Below, in pieces: positions 14,140 through 55,860 of a stretch of 64,000 nt of DNA; position 1 is the first letter of the stretch, and every line of letters begins with the position of its first letter. This stretch comes from Deferrisoma camini S3R1 (GTDB lineage Bacteria > Desulfobacterota > Deferrisomatia > Deferrisomatales > Deferrisomataceae). The notes beneath the pieces are model-generated. The model worked only from the letters and a program-made list of their open reading frames with translations, was not told where the DNA came from and ran no database searches. The stretch spans positions 1,120,501-1,184,500 of the forward strand of contig NZ_JAFN01000001.1 of NCBI RefSeq assembly GCF_000526155.1. Direction: 5' to 3'. The translations under genes and the position numbers were made by a program.

Positions 14140-14733
14140 CGGTCCACCGACTCCGACAACTTGGTTCGGCGGGAGAGCCCGACTGTCAACGTGGAGGCAC
14201 CGACCTCGAGAGGGACAATCCTGGGCCTCTCTGCCGGATCTGCGAGCCTGGATGAGGAGTGGTGGACGCTGCGGTACCAGACAGTAGGGCCGCGGACGTC
14301 GGGTTGCCCGATAACGGTGAGGTTGCAGATCCGCCGAGGCAGAGACGTCGCCGACGTGATCCGATCGGGGGTGGGGTGTGTCCGAAAACCACGGGTCCGC
14401 TCAACTGCTTGTTATCACAGCATAAATTTTTAGCTTGACGGAGGGACTATAGAGTGTCCCTGCCTCCTCTAAGCTGCCGTGAATCGTAAATCGTGAATCG
14501 TAGCGAGGCGGCTGGGCGGCCGGAGCCCCTGCCCCGTCCGAACGTCCCCACGTCCGCGCGTTTTCCCGTCACCGATCACCCGTCACGCGTCACTGCCCTT
14601 CCCACCCGTCACGGCCCTTCTTCCCTTTCCCCCCTTCCCCAAGGTCATTTGATCGGCTACAATTCGGCCCGCACTTCCAAGGGCTCGACGAGGAGTTCTT
14701 TCTGCATCCGTTTCGATTCACAGGAGGGGGTCC
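14140..14733. other. Gap: possible IS110 flank, repeat mosaic, eps leader
   Basis: 14140-14440 is not repetitive and may be the old 3' end of the IS110 element. 14441-14465 repeats GTCCCTGCCTCCT seen at 13730. 14470-14640 is a mosaic: CTGCCGTGAATCGTAAATCGTGAATCGTAGCGAGGCGG, CACCGATCACCCGTCACGCGTCAC. The final 90 nt lead to the ribosome site of the glycosyltransferase gene. Confidence 0.5.
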
Positions 14734-16237: not shown

Positions 16238-16668
16238 TTAAACCTGTGCTTCGTCGGACACCTTAAAGTCATCCAGCGGAATCGTCTGCTGTTCAGTGTA
16301 TGCATTGACGATTTCGTCTGTTACCGTGTCCGACGAAGCACAAAAGTACCTCCGAGCCCAGATGTGCTGCCCCCAATATCGTTTTCGGAGGGAGGAAAAC
16401 TTCTGTTGCAAACTCCGGGACGCCCTCCCTTTCATGTACTGCATAATCCGGGCAGGTGATAAGATCGGTGGCGCGGACACAAGAAGGGGTACATGATCTT
16501 TACTTATGTAGCCCTTTAAGATTGCAATCTCTCTCGCCATGCATATCTGGCGTATGATATCCCACGCGCACTCTGCGATCTCCCCACGGAGAACTTTGTA
16601 TCGGCATTTCGTTACTCACACAAAGTGGTACTTAATATCATGGACCGCATGCGGCCGTATGCGCCCAG
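16238..16668 (-). pseudogene. tnpA: IS200/IS605 TnpA (Y1 transposase), inactivated
   Basis: Reading HAVHDIKYHFV-stop-VTKCRYKVLRGEIAEC, then an intact frame from MAREIAILKGYISKDHV to the end. The TGA at 16616-16618 replaces the Trp of the family FVWVTKYR. The HUH motif is broken too: KDHVPLL stands where active TnpA has DHVHL. YFCASSDTVTDEIVNAYTEQQ is the normal C-terminal part. The N-terminal start is not in frame. A clear decayed insertion at the end of the polysaccharide locus. Confidence 0.85.
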
Positions 16669-27054: not shown

Positions 27055-27369
27055 CTACGGCTCTTTCACCCGGTACACGCCGTGGTGGGCCTCGGTGTCG
27101 GCGCGATGGGCCGCAAGGTCCGCGGCCACGGCGTCGAGCTTGGCTTCGAGCTTCTTCTCGACCGCGTCGATCTTCGCGTCGAGGCGCGTTTCCACCTCGT
27201 CGACCCGCTTCGTCAGGGCTTCGAACTTGAGATCCACCAGGTCGAAACGCTCGTCCGTCCTGCGTGCGAGCGCCTGGATCTCGCTCCGGAGCACTTCGTG
27301 CCCCTCGAGAACCAGGTCGAACTTGCTTCGGATGCCTTCGAGCAGGATCTCCAGGTGGTCCTTTTCCAT
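27055..27369 (-). CDS. Small coiled-coil protein, MEKDH family, copy 2
   Basis: 104 residues. MEKDHLEILLEGIRSKFDLV, LEGHEVLRSEIQALARRTDERFDLVDLKFEALTKRVDEVETRL, then DAKIDAVEKKLEAKLDAVAADLAAHRADTEAHHGVYRVKEP. Same N- and C-termini as copies 3 and 4 but with the fewest 11-residue AKIDxVEKKLE units (about two). Ribosome site GGAGG just before TCCCC-ATG. Function unknown; soluble rod-like protein predicted. Confidence 0.75.
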   Translation of the reverse strand: MEKDHLEILLEGIRSKFDLVLEGHEVLRSEIQALARRTDERFDLVDLKFEALTKRVDEVETRLDAKIDAVEKKLEAKLDAVAADLAAHRADTEAHHGVYRVKEP

Positions 27370-29469: not shown

Positions 29470-29883
29470 CTACGGCTCTTTCACCCGGTACACGCCGTGG
29501 TGGGCCTCGGTGTCGGCGCGGTGGGCCGCAAGGTCCGCGGCCACGGCGTCGAGCTTGCCCCCGAGATTTTTCTCGACGGCCTCGATCTTGGCGTCGAGTT
29601 TCTTCTCGACCGCGTCGATCTTTGCCTCCAGCTTCCTCTCGACGGCGTCGATCTTCGCTTCCAGCTTCTTCTCTACACCGTCGATCTTCGCGTCGAGGCG
29701 CGTTTCCACCTCGTCGACCCGCTTCGTCAGGGCTTCGAACTTGAGATCCACCAGGTCGAAACGCTCGTCCGTCCTGCGTGCGAGCGCCTGGATCTCGCTC
29801 CGGAGCACTTCGTGCCCCTCGAGAACCAGGTCGAACTTGCTTCGGATGTCTTCGAGCAGGATCTCCGGGTGGTCCTTTTCCAT
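29470..29883 (-). CDS. Small coiled-coil protein, MEKDH family, copy 3
   Basis: 137 residues. Same head (MEKDHPEILLEDIRSKFDLV) and tail (LDAVAADLAAHRADTEAHHGVYRVKEP) as copy 2, with about five AKIDAVEKKLE-type units between, so it is a length variant. ATG 29883 with GGAGG 5 nt upstream; the 3' flank (CTGTGGCCCCACGCTCC) is also shared. Unknown function. Confidence 0.75.
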   Translation of the reverse strand: MEKDHPEILLEDIRSKFDLVLEGHEVLRSEIQALARRTDERFDLVDLKFEALTKRVDEVETRLDAKIDGVEKKLEAKIDAVERKLEAKIDAVEKKLDAKIEAVEKNLGGKLDAVAADLAAHRADTEAHHGVYRVKEP

Positions 29884-29900
29884 GGGGACCTCCAAGACGG

Positions 29901-32864: not shown

Positions 32865-33326
32865 CTATTCCACCGGTGCATCGAAGCGTTCCGGATGTGC
32901 GCGGCACCAGGACAGCATGGCGTCCAAGACGTCCTCCACGTCCCCGAGCCGCCGGGAGCACACCTCGTACAGCTCTTGGGGCCCGACCTCGTGGTAAAAG
33001 TGGACCATCCGGTTCCGATAGCCCGCCAGAACGACGAGGGTCCGGGCAACGTCGGGTGCCAGCACGCCGACCCGCTCGAGTCCCCTCGCCACCTCCTTGT
33101 ACTCGGAGGGCGCCACCCCAAACCCCTTTGCGAGCACGTGGCGCCCCAGGTCCAGCAACGCCTCCAGAGCCCGGCGGAGGTACGACTCTGCCGCAGCCAC
33201 GTTTCTGGCGTCCGAGAAAAACTCGTCGGCGCTCCCCAGGGGAAGCCCCCGCACGCAGGCCAGCATCTCCCGCACCCAGGCCGCTCTTTCGGCCACCACG
33301 GCCGCCCGAAGAGTCGACGGGGTCAT
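32865..33326 (-). CDS. hepT: HepT-like toxin (RNase/HEPN)
   Basis: 153 residues. Helical protein with AAAESYLRRALEALLDLGRHVLAKGFG and the HEPN active motif R-N-R-M-V-H-F-Y (RX4HXY). In HepT/MntA modules the antitoxin AMPylates the tyrosine of this motif. Start ATG 33326 overlaps the nucleotidyltransferase stop (ATGA). Confidence 0.88.
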   Translation of the reverse strand: MTPSTLRAAVVAERAAWVREMLACVRGLPLGSADEFFSDARNVAAAESYLRRALEALLDLGRHVLAKGFGVAPSEYKEVARGLERVGVLAPDVARTLVVLAGYRNRMVHFYHEVGPQELYEVCSRRLGDVEDVLDAMLSWCRAHPERFDAPVE

Positions 33327-33748
33327 CGAGCTCCCTCCCGGTAGATCGCTCGGATCCTCTCCTTGTGCCAGTGGGCCAGGTCTCCGGTCCGCGCCAGCAC
33401 GTAGAGTTCGTACCGGGCCTGGGCATCCGGGTCGGTGCAGGCCAGGATCTCACCCCGGATCACTTCGTACGCCAGAAACGTCGGCGCCTCGGTCACCACG
33501 ACGAGGTCCACCCGGCCCACCCCGAACAAGTCCTCCAGGGCCTGGGCCAGCTCCACCTTCTCGAAGGCTCCCAGCCGCCGACCCGGCCTCGGCTGCACCC
33601 CGATGTCCAGGTCCGACGCGCCGGGTTCGGGCTGCACGTCCCCACCCCGCGCCCGCGCCGCCGCCTCGCCGGCCCGGCTACCGAATGCATAGATCGCCAC
33701 CAAGCCGTGGCGACGGCACAGGTCCAAGAGGCGCTCGGAGAGGCACAT
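33323..33748 (-). CDS. mntA: MntA-type nucleotidyltransferase antitoxin
   Basis: 141 residues. VAIYAFGSRAGEAAARARGGDVQPEPGASDLDIGVQ is a minimal nucleotidyltransferase GSx(n)DxD motif with a longer spacer than usual (about 20 residues between GS and DLD), and VDLVVVTEAP supplies the third Asp. It would adenylylate the HepT toxin. ATG 33748. Directly upstream is the word GACGTTGCTGCGTAGTTGCC (33769). Confidence 0.88.
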   Translation of the reverse strand: MCLSERLLDLCRRHGLVAIYAFGSRAGEAAARARGGDVQPEPGASDLDIGVQPRPGRRLGAFEKVELAQALEDLFGVGRVDLVVVTEAPTFLAYEVIRGEILACTDPDAQARYELYVLARTGDLAHWHKERIRAIYREGAR

Positions 33749-34017: not shown

Positions 34018-34398
34018 CTACGGCTCTTTCACCCGGTACACGCCGTGGTGGACCTCGGTGTCGGCGCGGTGGGCCGCAAGGTCGGCGGCCACGGCGTCGA
34101 GCTTGGCTTCGAGCTTCTTCTCGACCGCGTCGATCTTTGCCTCCAGCTTCCTCTCGACGGCGTCGATCTTCGCTTCCAGCTTCTTCTCTACACCGTCGAT
34201 CTTCGCGTCGAGGCGCGTTTCCACCTCGTCGACCCGCTTCGCGAGCGCTTCGATCAGGAAGGTATTCCGTTCGACCTTCTCCTCGAGCTCCCCGAACCGC
34301 GCGTCGATCTTCCGGTCGAGAGCCGCGTAGCCCTCGATCACGAGATCGAACTTACTTCGGATGTCTTCGAGCAGGATCTCCAGGTGGTCTTTTTCCAT
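34018..34398 (-). CDS. Small coiled-coil protein, MEKDH family, copy 4
   Basis: 126 residues. Head MEKDHLEILLEDIRSKFDLV, then a different second block (IEGYAALDRKIDARFGELEEKVERNTFLIEALAKRVDEVETRL) and about four AKIDAVEKKLE units, tail LDAVAADLAAHRADTEVHHGVYRVKEP. So the paralogues recombine or diverge in blocks as well as repeat number. ATG 34398 with GGAGG. Unknown function. Confidence 0.75.
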   Translation of the reverse strand: MEKDHLEILLEDIRSKFDLVIEGYAALDRKIDARFGELEEKVERNTFLIEALAKRVDEVETRLDAKIDGVEKKLEAKIDAVERKLEAKIDAVEKKLEAKLDAVAADLAAHRADTEVHHGVYRVKEP

Positions 34399-34849
34399 GG
34401 GGACCTCCAGGACGCTTCGCGTCCGCTGGGCGGCTGGGAGGCTGGGCCGTCACCCCGTCACCGATCACCCGTCACGGCCAAACTGCCGTAAATCGTAAAT
34501 CGTAAATCGTGAATCGTAAATCGTTGGGACGCTAGGACGCTGGAACGCTGGGACGGTAGGACGCGAAGCGTCGACACCGATCACTCGTTACCGGTCACCG
34601 TGTCACTGCCCTTCCCACCCGTCACCGCCAAACTTCCGTAAATCGTGAATCGTAAATCGTGAATGGTTGGAAAAGCCGCGGGTCGTTCGTGCTTCGTCGT
34701 TGGTGGAGGGGCATCACCTGTCACGGCCTTTCCGCCTCCCAGCCTCCTAGCTTCCTAGCTTTCCAGCGGCCCGCGTGGCGGGCCATCTGTGTCCATCTGT
34801 GTGGATCTGGGGCGAAAGACGTTGGGTCGTAGAGACGCGAAGACGCCGC
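34399..34849. repeat. Repeat mosaic including the 235-bp repeat, copy 1
   Basis: 34399-34500 repeats the 5' flank of MEKDH copy 2 (GACGCTTCGCGTCCGCTGGG ... CACCGATCACCCGTCACGG ... CTGCCGTAAATCG). 34575-34809 is a 235-bp block found again at 42598-42832 with one mismatch. It ends with GGCCATCTGTGTCCATCTG, CACAGAT-family words. Confidence 0.92.
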
Positions 34850-35677
34850 CTAGCCCAGCCTCCACGCCACCACCCCCACCACGCCCCACAGCAGGCTGAG
34901 GACGGTGAGGCCGGCGAGCCCTAGGGCCAGGAGCCGGTGCCAGGGGGCCTCGGGCCGCTGCTCCCGGAACCCCAGCAGATGACCCAGGGCGAAGCCGGCC
35001 GCGAGCCCGCCGCCGTGGGCCCAGTTGTTGATGCCGGGCAGGAGGAACCCGAACAGGAAGATCCCCACGGTCCAGCCCCCCATCTGCCGGAACACGGCCT
35101 CGCCGTACACCCCGCCCCGGGCCCGGCCGTAGTACATGGCCGCGCCGATCAGGCCCAGCAGCGAGGCCGAGGCCCCGATGGTCAGCCCCACCCCGGCCAG
35201 CACCGACACCAGGAACCCTGCCGCGCCGGTGAGCAGGTACAGGGCCACGAACCGGGCCGTGCCGTACTCCCGGGCCACGAACGGCCCGATCTGGGCCAGG
35301 GCCGCCATGTTGAAGAACAGGTGCAGCAGCCCACCGTGGAGGAAGTTGGCGGCGAGCAGGGTCCACCACCGCCCCAACCGGAGCACCGGCAGGGAGCCGG
35401 TGGCGCCCATGAGGAACAGCCCCCGGTCCGAGGGGCTCAGAAACGCCAGGGGATTGAGGCTGCCGCCCAGGCCGGCCGGGTCCACCAGCAGGGACAGGCC
35501 GAACCAGGCCACGTTCACGGTGATGAGCCCCCGCACCAGCTCCCGGGGGCCGGGCTGGAGCCAGCCCAGCAGCGCCCGCCGGAACCGCATGCCCGGGGCG
35601 TGGAGCCCGCAGTGGGGGCAGCGGGGCTCGTCCGACGAGATCAGCCTTCGGCAGTGGGGGCAAAGGATGGGGGGCAT
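34850..35677 (-). CDS. Rhomboid-family intramembrane serine protease with zinc ribbon
   Basis: 275 residues. Zinc ribbon at the N-terminus (C6-x2-C9, C20-x2-C23), then six membrane helices: HGGLLHLFFNM gives the HxxxN element (H119, N123), TIGASASLLGLIGA the GxSx serine (S170), and NNWAHGGGLAAGF the catalytic His (H221). Site looks complete, although the serine motif is GASA rather than GASG. Cleaves transmembrane substrates; zinc-ribbon rhomboids are common but their targets are unknown. The stop lies next to a mosaic; 9 nt separate it from the HD gene upstream, so they are probably co-transcribed. Confidence 0.9.
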   Translation of the reverse strand: MPPILCPHCRRLISSDEPRCPHCGLHAPGMRFRRALLGWLQPGPRELVRGLITVNVAWFGLSLLVDPAGLGGSLNPLAFLSPSDRGLFLMGATGSLPVLRLGRWWTLLAANFLHGGLLHLFFNMAALAQIGPFVAREYGTARFVALYLLTGAAGFLVSVLAGVGLTIGASASLLGLIGAAMYYGRARGGVYGEAVFRQMGGWTVGIFLFGFLLPGINNWAHGGGLAAGFALGHLLGFREQRPEAPWHRLLALGLAGLTVLSLLWGVVGVVAWRLG

Positions 35678-41733: not shown

Positions 41734-42459
41734 TCACTCTCCCACCACCTTCGTGCCGATATTCTCGCCGCACACCACCCGCAGGGTGTTGCCGGGCCGG
41801 GTGAAGTCGTACACGATGATGGGCAGCCGGTTGTCCCGGCACAGGGAGATGGCCGTAGAATCCATCACTTTGAGGTCCCGCTTCAACACCTCGATGTACG
41901 ACACCTCGTCGAACCGCCGGGCGTCCGAGTGGCCCACCGGGTCCTTGTCGTATACCCCGTCGACCTTGGTGCCCTTCAGGATGGCCTCGGCCCCGATCTC
42001 CATGGCCCGCAGCCCCGCGGCCGTGTCGGTGCTGAAGTAGGGGTTGCCGGTGCCCGCCGCAAAGATCACGATCCGCCCCTTCTCCAGGTGCCGGATCGCC
42101 CGGCGCCGGATGTAGGGCTCGGCCACCTGCTGCATGGTGATCGCGGACATCACCCGGGTCTTGGCCCCGCGGCGCTCCAGCGCGTCCTGGAGGGCCAGGC
42201 TGTTGATCACCGTGGCAAGCATGCCCATGTAGTCGGCCGTGGCCCGGTCCATGCCGGCGGCCGAGGCCCTGAGGCCCCGGAAGATGTTGCCCCCGCCGAC
42301 CACCAGGGCCACCTCCACCCCCAGGCCCCGCACCTCGGCCACCTCGTGGGCCAGGCGCTCGACCACGTCCTGGTCGATGCCGAACCCCTGGGCCCCCATG
42401 AGGGCCTCTCCGGAGAACTTGAGCAGCACCCGACGGTACACCGGCTTTCGTTCGCTCAC
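41734..42459 (-). CDS. pyrH: UMP kinase
   Basis: 241 residues, hexameric bacterial UMP kinase. [87 protein letters not shown], GxNTLRVV are present. GTG start with AGGAG 8 nt upstream. Sits between tsf and frr as in most bacteria. Confidence 0.97.
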
Positions 42460-42489
42460 GATGACTCCTGCGTATGCGTGGACGTTGGG

Positions 42490-42860
42490 ACGTGATCACT
42501 ACCGTTGGTCGTTCGTCGTTGGTCGAAATTTCCGTGAATCGTGAATGGTGAATCGTAAATCGTGAATCGTGGCTGGGCGACGGGGCCGTCACCGCGTCAC
42601 CGATCACTCGTTACCGGTCACCGCGTCACTGCCCTTCCCACCCGTCACCGCCAAACTTCCGTAAATCGTGAATCGTAAATCGTGAATGGTTGGAAAAGCC
42701 GCGGGTCGTTCGTGCTTCGTCGTTGGTGGAGGGGCATCACCTGTCACGGCCTTTCCGCCTCCCAGCCTCCTAGCTTCCTAGCTTTCCAGCGGCCCGCGTG
42801 GCGGGCCATCTGTGTCCATCTGTGTGGATCTGTGGCTGAAGAGGTTCGGACGCCGGGCGG
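42490..42860. repeat. Repeat mosaic including the 235-bp repeat, copy 2
   Basis: Begins GTTGGTCGTTCGTCGTTGGTCG and GTGAATCGTGAATGGTGAATCG; 42598-42832 matches 34575-34809 (one C/T difference at 42624/34601). Lies between tsf and pyrH. Confidence 0.92.
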
Positions 42861-42876
42861 GGCGGTCCAAACGCAC

Positions 42877-42912
42877 GATCGGGGGAGCGGGGAGGGCCCC
42901 GCTCCCCCGATC
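42877..42912 (-). terminator. Rho-independent-like terminator after tsf
   Basis: Perfect 16-bp stem (GATCGGGGGAGCGGGG and its complement) with a 4-nt loop, 17 nt past the tsf stop; only a short T-run (GCGTTT) follows on the minus strand. Confidence 0.75.
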
Positions 42913-42928
42913 CGTTCGCAGGGACGCG

Positions 42929-43579
42929 TCAGGCGCGGGCCTGGGCGGCCACCTCTTCGGCGAAGTTGTCCTTGCGCTTCTCCAGCCCCTCGCCGAGCTG
43001 GAACCGCACGAACCGGCGAATCCGGATGTTCTCTCCGAGCTCCGCGATCTTCTGCTTGAGCAGGTCCCCCACCGTGAGATCGGGGTCCTTCACGAAGGGC
43101 TGGTCCAGCAGGCAGTTCTCCTTGAGGAACTTCTGCAGCCGGCCTTCCACCATCTTCTCGATCACGTGGGGAGGCTTCCCGCTCTCGGCCGCCTGCTCGC
43201 TGAGGATCCGGCGCTCGTTCTCCACCTCGTCGGCGGGCGCACTCTCCCGGTCGAGCCACCTGGGGTTGGTGGCGGCCACGTGCATGGCCACGTCGTGCAC
43301 GAACTGCTTGAAGGCGTCGGTGCGGGCCACGAAATCGGTCTCGCAGTTCACCTCCACCAGCACGCCGATCCGCCCGCCCGCGTGGATGTACGAGTGAACC
43401 AGTCCTTCGGCCGCCACCCGGCCCGCCTTCTTGGCGGCGTCCGCGAGCCCCTTCTTCCGAAGGTACTCCACGGCCTTGTCCATGTCGCCCCCGGTCTCCT
43501 GGAGGGCCTTCTTGCAGTCCATCATGCCCGCCCCGGTGCGCTCCCGGAGCTCCTTTACCGCTTGTGCCGTGATCGCCAT
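42929..43579 (-). CDS. tsf: Elongation factor Ts
   Basis: 216 residues, GDP exchange factor for EF-Tu. [54 protein letters not shown] is the N-terminal UBA-like part; [24 protein letters not shown] and the short single core domain ([42 protein letters not shown]) follow. The length fits the short EF-Ts type. ATG 43579; downstream of rpsB with a terminator-like hairpin between. Confidence 0.97.
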
Positions 43580-43604
43580 GGTCTTTACTCCCTGTTCGGT
43601 CATT

Positions 43605-44744: not shown

Positions 44745-44905
44745 GACAATGGCGGGAGGGCTGGGAAGCTAGGAGGCTAGGAGGCTAGGAGGCTGGGAGG
44801 CTGGGAGGCTGGGAGGCTGTCTGGCTCTCCTGCGGCCCGTCCAGCGGACACGAGGCCTCCCGACGATTCACGATTCACGATTCACGATTCACGGAAACAA
44901 TCCCC
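44745..44905. repeat. Repeat mosaic upstream of PII gene
   Basis: (GCTAGGAGGCTAGGAG / GCTGGGAGGCTGGGAG)n, at least eight octamers at 44760-44820, then GACGATTCACGATTCACG heptamers to 44893. It fills the divergent spacer between rpsB and the PII gene. Confidence 0.85.
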
Positions 44906-45261: not shown

Positions 45262-45350
45262 GGGCCGGGGGTCGGTGCTCGTTCGTCGTGGGTCGTGTGA
45301 TACCGAGTTGCATCCAGAACTATTGGCCCCCTGCCCGAAGGGGCAAGGGG

Positions 45351-45503
45351 CCCGTCGGAGAGCCGGGCGCGGCTCCCTAGCTCGCCGCGCAGCGCCTCTG
45401 ACGCTCGGACCGCGAAAGGGTTCGGATTCCACTGAGCTGCCAGGAAACCAGCTCTTCGGTCCCGTGCCTGCGCGGCGAATCTCAAGCCTGGCTTCGCGCC
45501 CGG
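45351..45503. repeat. Dispersed structured element, copy 1
   Basis: Contains TAGCTCGCCGCGCAGCGCCTC and, 85 nt later, GTGCCTGCGCGGCGAATCTC, so TCGCCGCGCAG pairs with CTGCGCGGCGA. The same series, including CGCGGCTCC and GGCTTCGCGC, recurs at 55354-55502. The rest of 45262-45602 shows no gene; GGTCGGTGCTCGTTCGTCG words sit at 45270. Confidence 0.75.
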
Positions 45504-45602
45504 ATCCGTATGCGATGGATGGCAACTCGGTATGAAAGGCCGTGGGGTGCAGGTCGGGGTTGATCCGTGAAACGAACGGCTGTCGGACCTCCCCGCCTCG
45601 GC

Positions 45603-55261: not shown

Positions 55262-55860
55262 CCAGTAACTTTGGGCCTTCGGCCCGCTAGGCCGCTAGGC
55301 GGCCGGGCAGCTTTTGAGCCCCGACGCCAAGGCTTCGGGGGCATGGGGCCTGCTGGAGAGCCGCGTGCGGCCCCTTAGCTCGCCGCGCAGCGCCTCCAAC
55401 GCTCGTACCGTGAATCCGTTCGTGCCCCACCGAACGGTCATGAAACCACCGCCGGTGCCCCGTGCCTGCGCGGCGAATCTCATGCCCGGCTTCGCGCGCG
55501 GCCGGAAGCAGGCCCCATGTCCCGCCGCTGGCGCCGGCCCCGGACAGACAAGAGTTACCCTTCTCGTGGTGCCCGGCCCTGCACAGGGCCTGAAGGGGCT
55601 TTCCAGTAACTTTGGGCCTTCGGCCCCCTGGAAGGCTAGAAGGCCAGGAGGCGGAAAGGCCGTGCGTCGCAGGGGGTTGTCGTCCCAACATCCTAACGTC
55701 CCAACGAGCCAAGACCCACGGCCTTTCACGACCAACAACAGTTGTTCCCGTGACGGGTGACCAGTGACGCGTGACGGGTGGGCCGGCGAGCCGCCCAGCG
55801 GACGCGAAGCGTCCCAACGATTCACGATTTACGGAAGTTTCGACCAACAACCCGCGGCCC
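55262..55860. repeat. Repeat region including structured element, copy 2
   Basis: CCAGTAACTTTGGGCCTTCGGCCC occurs at 55262 and again at 55605. 55354-55502 matches 45351-45503 (TAGCTCGCCGCGCAGCGCCTC ... GTGCCTGCGCGGCGAATCTC). 55620-55850 is a mosaic: GGAAGGCTAGAAGGCCAGGAGG, CCCAACATCCTAACGTCCCAACG, GTGACGGGTGACCAGTGACGCGTGACGGG, GGACGCGAAGCGTCC, ACGATTCACGATTTACGGAAG. No gene. Confidence 0.8.

Follow-up and report, generated by a model that had tools for sequence, protein, structure and literature searches.

An intergenic 235-bp word mosaic held in two slots of the Deferrisoma camini S3R1 chromosome, and its probable origin by recent local copying

Two intergenic slots in the 64,000-nucleotide stretch of the Deferrisoma camini S3R1 chromosome analysed here (the window) carry the same 235-bp block, and the best explanation for this pair appears to be a recent, local, homology-anchored copying between resident mosaics, by gene conversion or template switching, a reading that we hold with moderate confidence. 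Direct comparison of positions 34575-34809 (copy 1, + strand) with positions 42598-42832 (copy 2, + strand) gives 235 aligned bp, no gaps and one difference, a T at 34601 against a C at 42624, exactly as the initial annotation of this DNA had claimed. Copy 1 occupies the slot 34399-34849, between a small coiled-coil gene (34018-34398, - strand) and a rhomboid-protease gene (34850-35677, - strand). Copy 2 lies in the slot 42460-42928, between tsf (42929-43603, - strand) and pyrH (41734-42459, - strand), the latter being identified from an amino-acid-kinase match and from its position beside tsf and rpsB. The flanking genes of the two copies are unrelated, as had also been stated. To the left of the block the similarity between the copies drops to background at once, and to the right a faint similarity runs approximately 20 bp further. 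A search of the block against its own genome, a single contig of 4,236,551 bp, had been proposed with the initial annotation and returns these two full-length copies only, the second with an E-value of 3.7e-118, which excludes a chance origin of the pair; the 58 other matches are short, partial and due to common words. The block was not matched in plasmid and phage collections, and Rfam returned nothing at the gathering threshold in window positions 24000-46000.

The block and its surroundings are made of degenerate tandem words of 7, 8 and 10 bp. Three of these words are heptamers, A (GTRAATS), C (RTYACYS) and T (GTTBGTC), two are octamers, D (RGGACGBT) and L (RGCTRGRA), and one is a decamer, V (ATCTGTGTNN). 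The order within the block is C - A - T - C - L - palindrome - V, with a C array at its left end (34575-34600, + strand), four A heptamers (34638-34665, + strand; 42661-42688 in copy 2), an L array (34735-34767, - strand; 42758-42790 in copy 2), a small palindrome read from the sequence, GGCCCGC-GTG-GCGGGCC (34768-34784; 42791-42807 in copy 2), and a V array at its right end (34785-34809, + strand), while the order often met in the window is A - D - (L) - palindrome - C. Another small palindrome, GACGC-GAA-GCGTC, adjoins copy 1 on the left (34560-34572, + strand) and is found 10 times in the window with at most one mismatch, against 0.24 expected. Furthermore, an inverted mosaic related to the block (71%) is present at 44763-44896 (- strand), in the slot upstream of rpsB.

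Word mosaics fill many intergenic gaps in this genus. Statements on the whole genome come from searches and from a 634 kb sample, part of whose stretches were picked for matching the block and in which genes were called with a simple custom script, not a standard gene finder. In this sample, 148 of the 149 tandem word arrays are intergenic, with a non-coding share of just 19% by these gene calls, and an order-3 Markov model expects 0-1 arrays per word; the word definitions were taken from this window, and the array count describes them and is not an independent discovery. An array is carried by 69 of the 284 sampled gaps of at least 60 bp. Of 115 pairs, not all of them independent, 99 fit a pattern in which, within a slot, the words A, C, T, D and V share a strand and L takes the other. 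No consistent rule was seen for the orientation of the mosaics relative to the flanking genes or to the sign of the GC skew, and the counting of frequent 12-mers was uninformative for the words, since GC-rich coding words dominate such counts.

The words have also been found beyond the genus. Among 297 genomes of the phylum, the exact patterns of A, L and V are present in 11, 11 and 8 genomes, respectively, with a patchy distribution, and the same search with reversed patterns as a control gave 0 matches. Word A was additionally detected in 27 viral-contig stretches, several of which are copies of one sequence; there it usually lies between genes and sometimes next to V-like words. In these viral contigs (L114-L140), A often occurs with other word-like repeats, such as GACACGGATGGACACGGAT in L126 and GACACCAGAAAACAGACACCAGAAAACA in L115, which are mostly intergenic.

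Comparison with two sister genomes, G001 and G002, places the block in time. The tsf, pyrH, rpsB and rhomboid genes are about 90-98% identical between this genome and its sisters, and the gene order from the rhomboid gene to tsf is conserved with G001. The initial annotation had suggested a search for empty sites in relatives; the orthologous slots of the sisters are not empty, and other word mosaics are found inside them. The pyrH-tsf slot holds shorter mosaics in both sisters, approximately 65 bp in G001 and approximately 140 bp in G002, neither of which includes the block, although the identity of the genes around this slot is about 90-95%. G002 does have a relative of the block of ~190-198 bp, 90% identical and inverted, upstream of rpsB, the slot that holds the mosaic 44763-44896 in this genome, and its rpsB and pyrH-tsf slots have, by eye, another stretch of ~110 bp in common. 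The different mosaics of the sisters and the inverted relative in G002 indicate that the content of a slot is replaced over time and passes from one slot to another, around genes that keep their places. These alignments suggest that gaps of this kind may be rewritten faster than the neighbouring genes. With regard to the age of the event, the divergence between the copies is 0.4% (95% CI 0.01-2.3%), and the third codon positions of tsf, pyrH and the rhomboid gene differ by 9.5-16% between the sister genomes, from which it follows that the copying was recent. Local slippage alone cannot give a recent near-identity that is absent from the orthologous sister slots, in agreement with the earlier statement that the mosaics are not built only in that manner.

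Under the preferred explanation, both slots would already have held mosaics before the event. After breakage or stalling in one slot, the DNA end could then pair with similar words in the other, copy a couple of hundred bases between shared arrays and return, by way of either RecA-type ectopic gene conversion or replication-associated template switching; judged from sequence comparison, the data would fit either route. The block ends in a C array on the left and in a V array on the right, and A and C words further left are common to both slots. A contiguous, near-identical 235-bp tract is shared by otherwise different loci that have word arrays in common, an arrangement expected of an ectopic gene conversion tract. 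We infer the enzymes, the direction and the production of inversions at slots by the same process. As for the direction, the tsf slot of G001 contains GCGTCACTGCCTTTCCCACCCGTCACCGCC, with a C at the mismatch site, the state of copy 2, and a V array is found at the corresponding slot edge in both sisters. Copying would accordingly have run from the pyrH-tsf slot to the rhomboid slot: these sister slots make copy 2 the likely donor and copy 1 the likely recipient, the T at 34601 probably being a later change. The strength of this deduction is moderate, because a phrase near-identical to GCGTCACTGCCTTTCCCACCCGTCACCGCC is also present at 14568-14620.

The wider set of mosaics gives further indications of local copying. 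Long mosaic pairs, defined by at least 75 bp and at least 88% identity, lie within 11 kb of each other in seven of eight cases, all seven in direct orientation, whereas a separation of up to 12 kb is found for 5.6% of mosaic-slot pairs overall and, among pairs of other dispersed repeats, for 4 of 69. Three of the seven close pairs extend into duplicated genes or shared flank, which reduces the independent evidence for locality to about four clusters. Direct orientation is a weak point, since 61 of 103 nearby mosaic pairs share their orientation anyway. The pattern fits local copying by conversion or template switching better than transposition. Against the preferred explanation stands the relative in G002, which is inverted with respect to its genes, something that simple slippage-type template switching would not give.

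The initial annotation had proposed that long mosaic blocks are copied as units and recently. Copying en bloc and its recency are borne out by the divergence of the copies and by the sister slots without the block; the notion of a unit with ends of its own is not. One alternative is an 8-kb jump of the block as a non-autonomous mobile element, which could be MITE-like or a REPIN mobilised by a Y1/RAYT-type transposase. Such a jump would be in keeping with the related composite of 190-198 bp in a different slot and orientation in G002, and with the ~12 Y1-transposase matches encoded in the genome. However, the comparison of the flanks of both copies, a check that had been proposed earlier, reveals no target-site duplication of 3-9 bp at either of them (a result that weighs less against Y1 transposases, which can act without making such duplications), and the only candidate for a terminal inverted repeat is a 7-bp match at chance level, so that the block has neither of the features that define a MITE. 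Moreover, the ends of the block lie inside word arrays, other long shared mosaic blocks of the genome end elsewhere, often likewise inside word arrays, and the genome has just two full copies. The presence of Y1 transposases was rejected as an explanation, given that Y1 genes are also found in relatives without block matches. A mobile element is hence unlikely. Still less probable is a larger direct duplication by unequal exchange that once took the block together with genes and of which the remainder was lost: other nearby mosaic pairs do extend into duplicated genes, but here the gene sequence at the two block ends is not common to the copies and the rhomboid-to-tsf order is kept in G001.

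An assembly artefact, which the initial annotation had named as a way to refute the duplication, seems very improbable. Judged from the assembly, the copies have a one-base difference and distinct flanks in a single-contig genome, and the flanks of the tsf slot show synteny with both sister genomes, which were assembled independently and one of which has a related block. A dedicated system that writes or spreads the words, with copying between slots as its normal activity, would agree with the consistent relative strand of the words and with their patchy recurrence over the phylum and in viral contigs; no machinery for it was found, however, and ordinary recombination accounts for the copying, which makes such a system improbable. 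A broader proposal is speculative, and we consider it doubtful. It would treat the mosaics as DNA under constant rewriting, with a common vocabulary and a consistent relative strand, kept by a specific process and not by random slippage; bacteria would exchange them, viruses perhaps being the carriers, and large inversions as well as local copying would be concentrated in them.

The recipient slot is also a gene-order breakpoint relative to the two sisters and one end of a ~409 kb inversion. The neighbour of the rhomboid gene in G001 is bioD, the end of which is likewise seen in G002; in this genome those bio genes are found at genome positions 745951-748134, inverted and ~409 kb away. The gene beside them (744066-745740) adjoins, in G001, relatives of the window's 28-34 kb region. 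Taken together, the split of rhomboid and bioD and these neighbours of 744066-745740 form the reciprocal pattern that marks an inversion with respect to G001. Within the inverted stretch the GC skew switches sign, as expected if the stretch spans the replication terminus. In the more distant relatives, within the stretches examined, bioD does not adjoin the rhomboid gene, and the inversion could consequently lie on either branch. Both ends of the inversion are mosaic slots, and the far end holds an inverted 73-bp match to the block (87%). The mosaics may have caused the inversion, but several points limit this link. Arrays are common, being present in about a quarter of gaps; the exact point of crossover is not visible in the sequence; the bio-rhomboid gap of G001 is almost without mosaic; and the mosaic beside the far gene (744066-745740) is flipped relative to its G001 counterpart, although both have a variant word not seen elsewhere. 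This word, GAATCGTCAATCGT, was seen in two mosaics only (L068 5021-5101 and L072 10740-10950). They adjoin one and the same gene, in G001 and in this genome, and their orientations with respect to that gene are opposite.

Several known systems resemble these mosaics in part. The STRR heptamers of cyanobacteria and the small dispersed repeats of Nostoc are tandem heptamers between genes, at many sites per genome. The heptamer words A, C and T and the intergenic position of the arrays (148 of 149 in 634 kb) are shared with STRR; the octamers D and L and the decamer V fall outside its definition, and, unlike STRR, words of 7, 8 and 10 bp are joined here in strand-consistent mosaics and neighbouring slots share long blocks. 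The TAACTGA direct repeats of Beggiatoaceae, Cyanobacteria and Bacteroidetes are likewise arrays of heptamers between genes, scattered patchily over distant lineages, and their author found no evident mechanism of horizontal spread (PMC4679880). That repeat is, however, a single word found mostly directly upstream of start codons (PMC4679880), whereas here a vocabulary is spread throughout several kinds of gap. Multicopy elements of tandem heptamers or octamers have been described in Geobacter metallireducens, of the same broad bacterial group; they form short defined families, interpreted as regulatory sites, with some members inside genes (PMC2700814), in contrast to the long, composite and almost wholly intergenic mosaics. 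REP and REPIN elements with RAYT transposases are also short extragenic repeats in high number (PMC3116915), and Y1 transposases are encoded in this genome. Small palindromes are present in and beside the block, which has no RNA folding signal on either strand (z -0.12 and -1.36); it does not appear to be organised as the two inverted palindromic REPs of a REPIN, and a link to a transposase gene is not apparent. Between the tuf genes of Salmonella, gene conversion transfers contiguous tracts and becomes far less frequent in recA strains (PMC5485169). The block resembles such a tract in being contiguous and probably copied one way between similar sequences on one chromosome, although the tuf genes are long and near-identical (PMC5485169) and the arrays here are short, degenerate and placed in gene gaps. 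In the literature searched, no description of long mosaics or of block copying between slots was found. The mosaics are a variant of known intergenic short-tandem-repeat DNA, with the larger question of the origin of the words behind it.

If local copying between resident mosaics is the right explanation, no transposon is needed for bacterial gene gaps to be rewritten block by block, far faster than the adjacent genes. Such rewriting can be measured in the orthologous slots of sister genomes, which directly show the donor, the recipient and the content that was replaced. Additionally, the mosaic slots at both ends of the inversion would offer a concrete site to study the reshaping of a chromosome by short degenerate repeats, and the same words in distant genomes raise the question of their source.

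Other features were observed in the window and in the genome. The small coiled-coil-type genes at 27055-27369, 29470-29895 and 34018-34398 are duplicated jointly with flanking mosaics and lie within the related stretches D2/D4. A HepT-like ribonuclease gene adjoins a nucleotidyltransferase gene at 32865-33748, a pair that looks like a HepT/MNT toxin-antitoxin system. The frame of a Y1 (IS200/IS605-type) transposase at 16286-16645 has one in-frame TGA, and intact, better-scoring Y1 copies are present elsewhere in the genome. A CRISPR-like array (L096 from position 2181, ~3.80 Mb in the genome) has 33 copies of a repeat containing CTGACCTGATTCAGAAGGGATTGC, with a spacing of ~70 bp. Finally, a second, unrelated dispersed element of ~175 bp, found in the window at 45301-45536 and 55338-55501, occupies at least 40 sites genome-wide with 85-98% identity; it looks MITE-like, since the ends of the copy at 45301-45536 pair with each other (TACCGAGTTGC / GCAACTCGGTA) and this copy has a much stronger fold than shuffled sequences (z -5.1).
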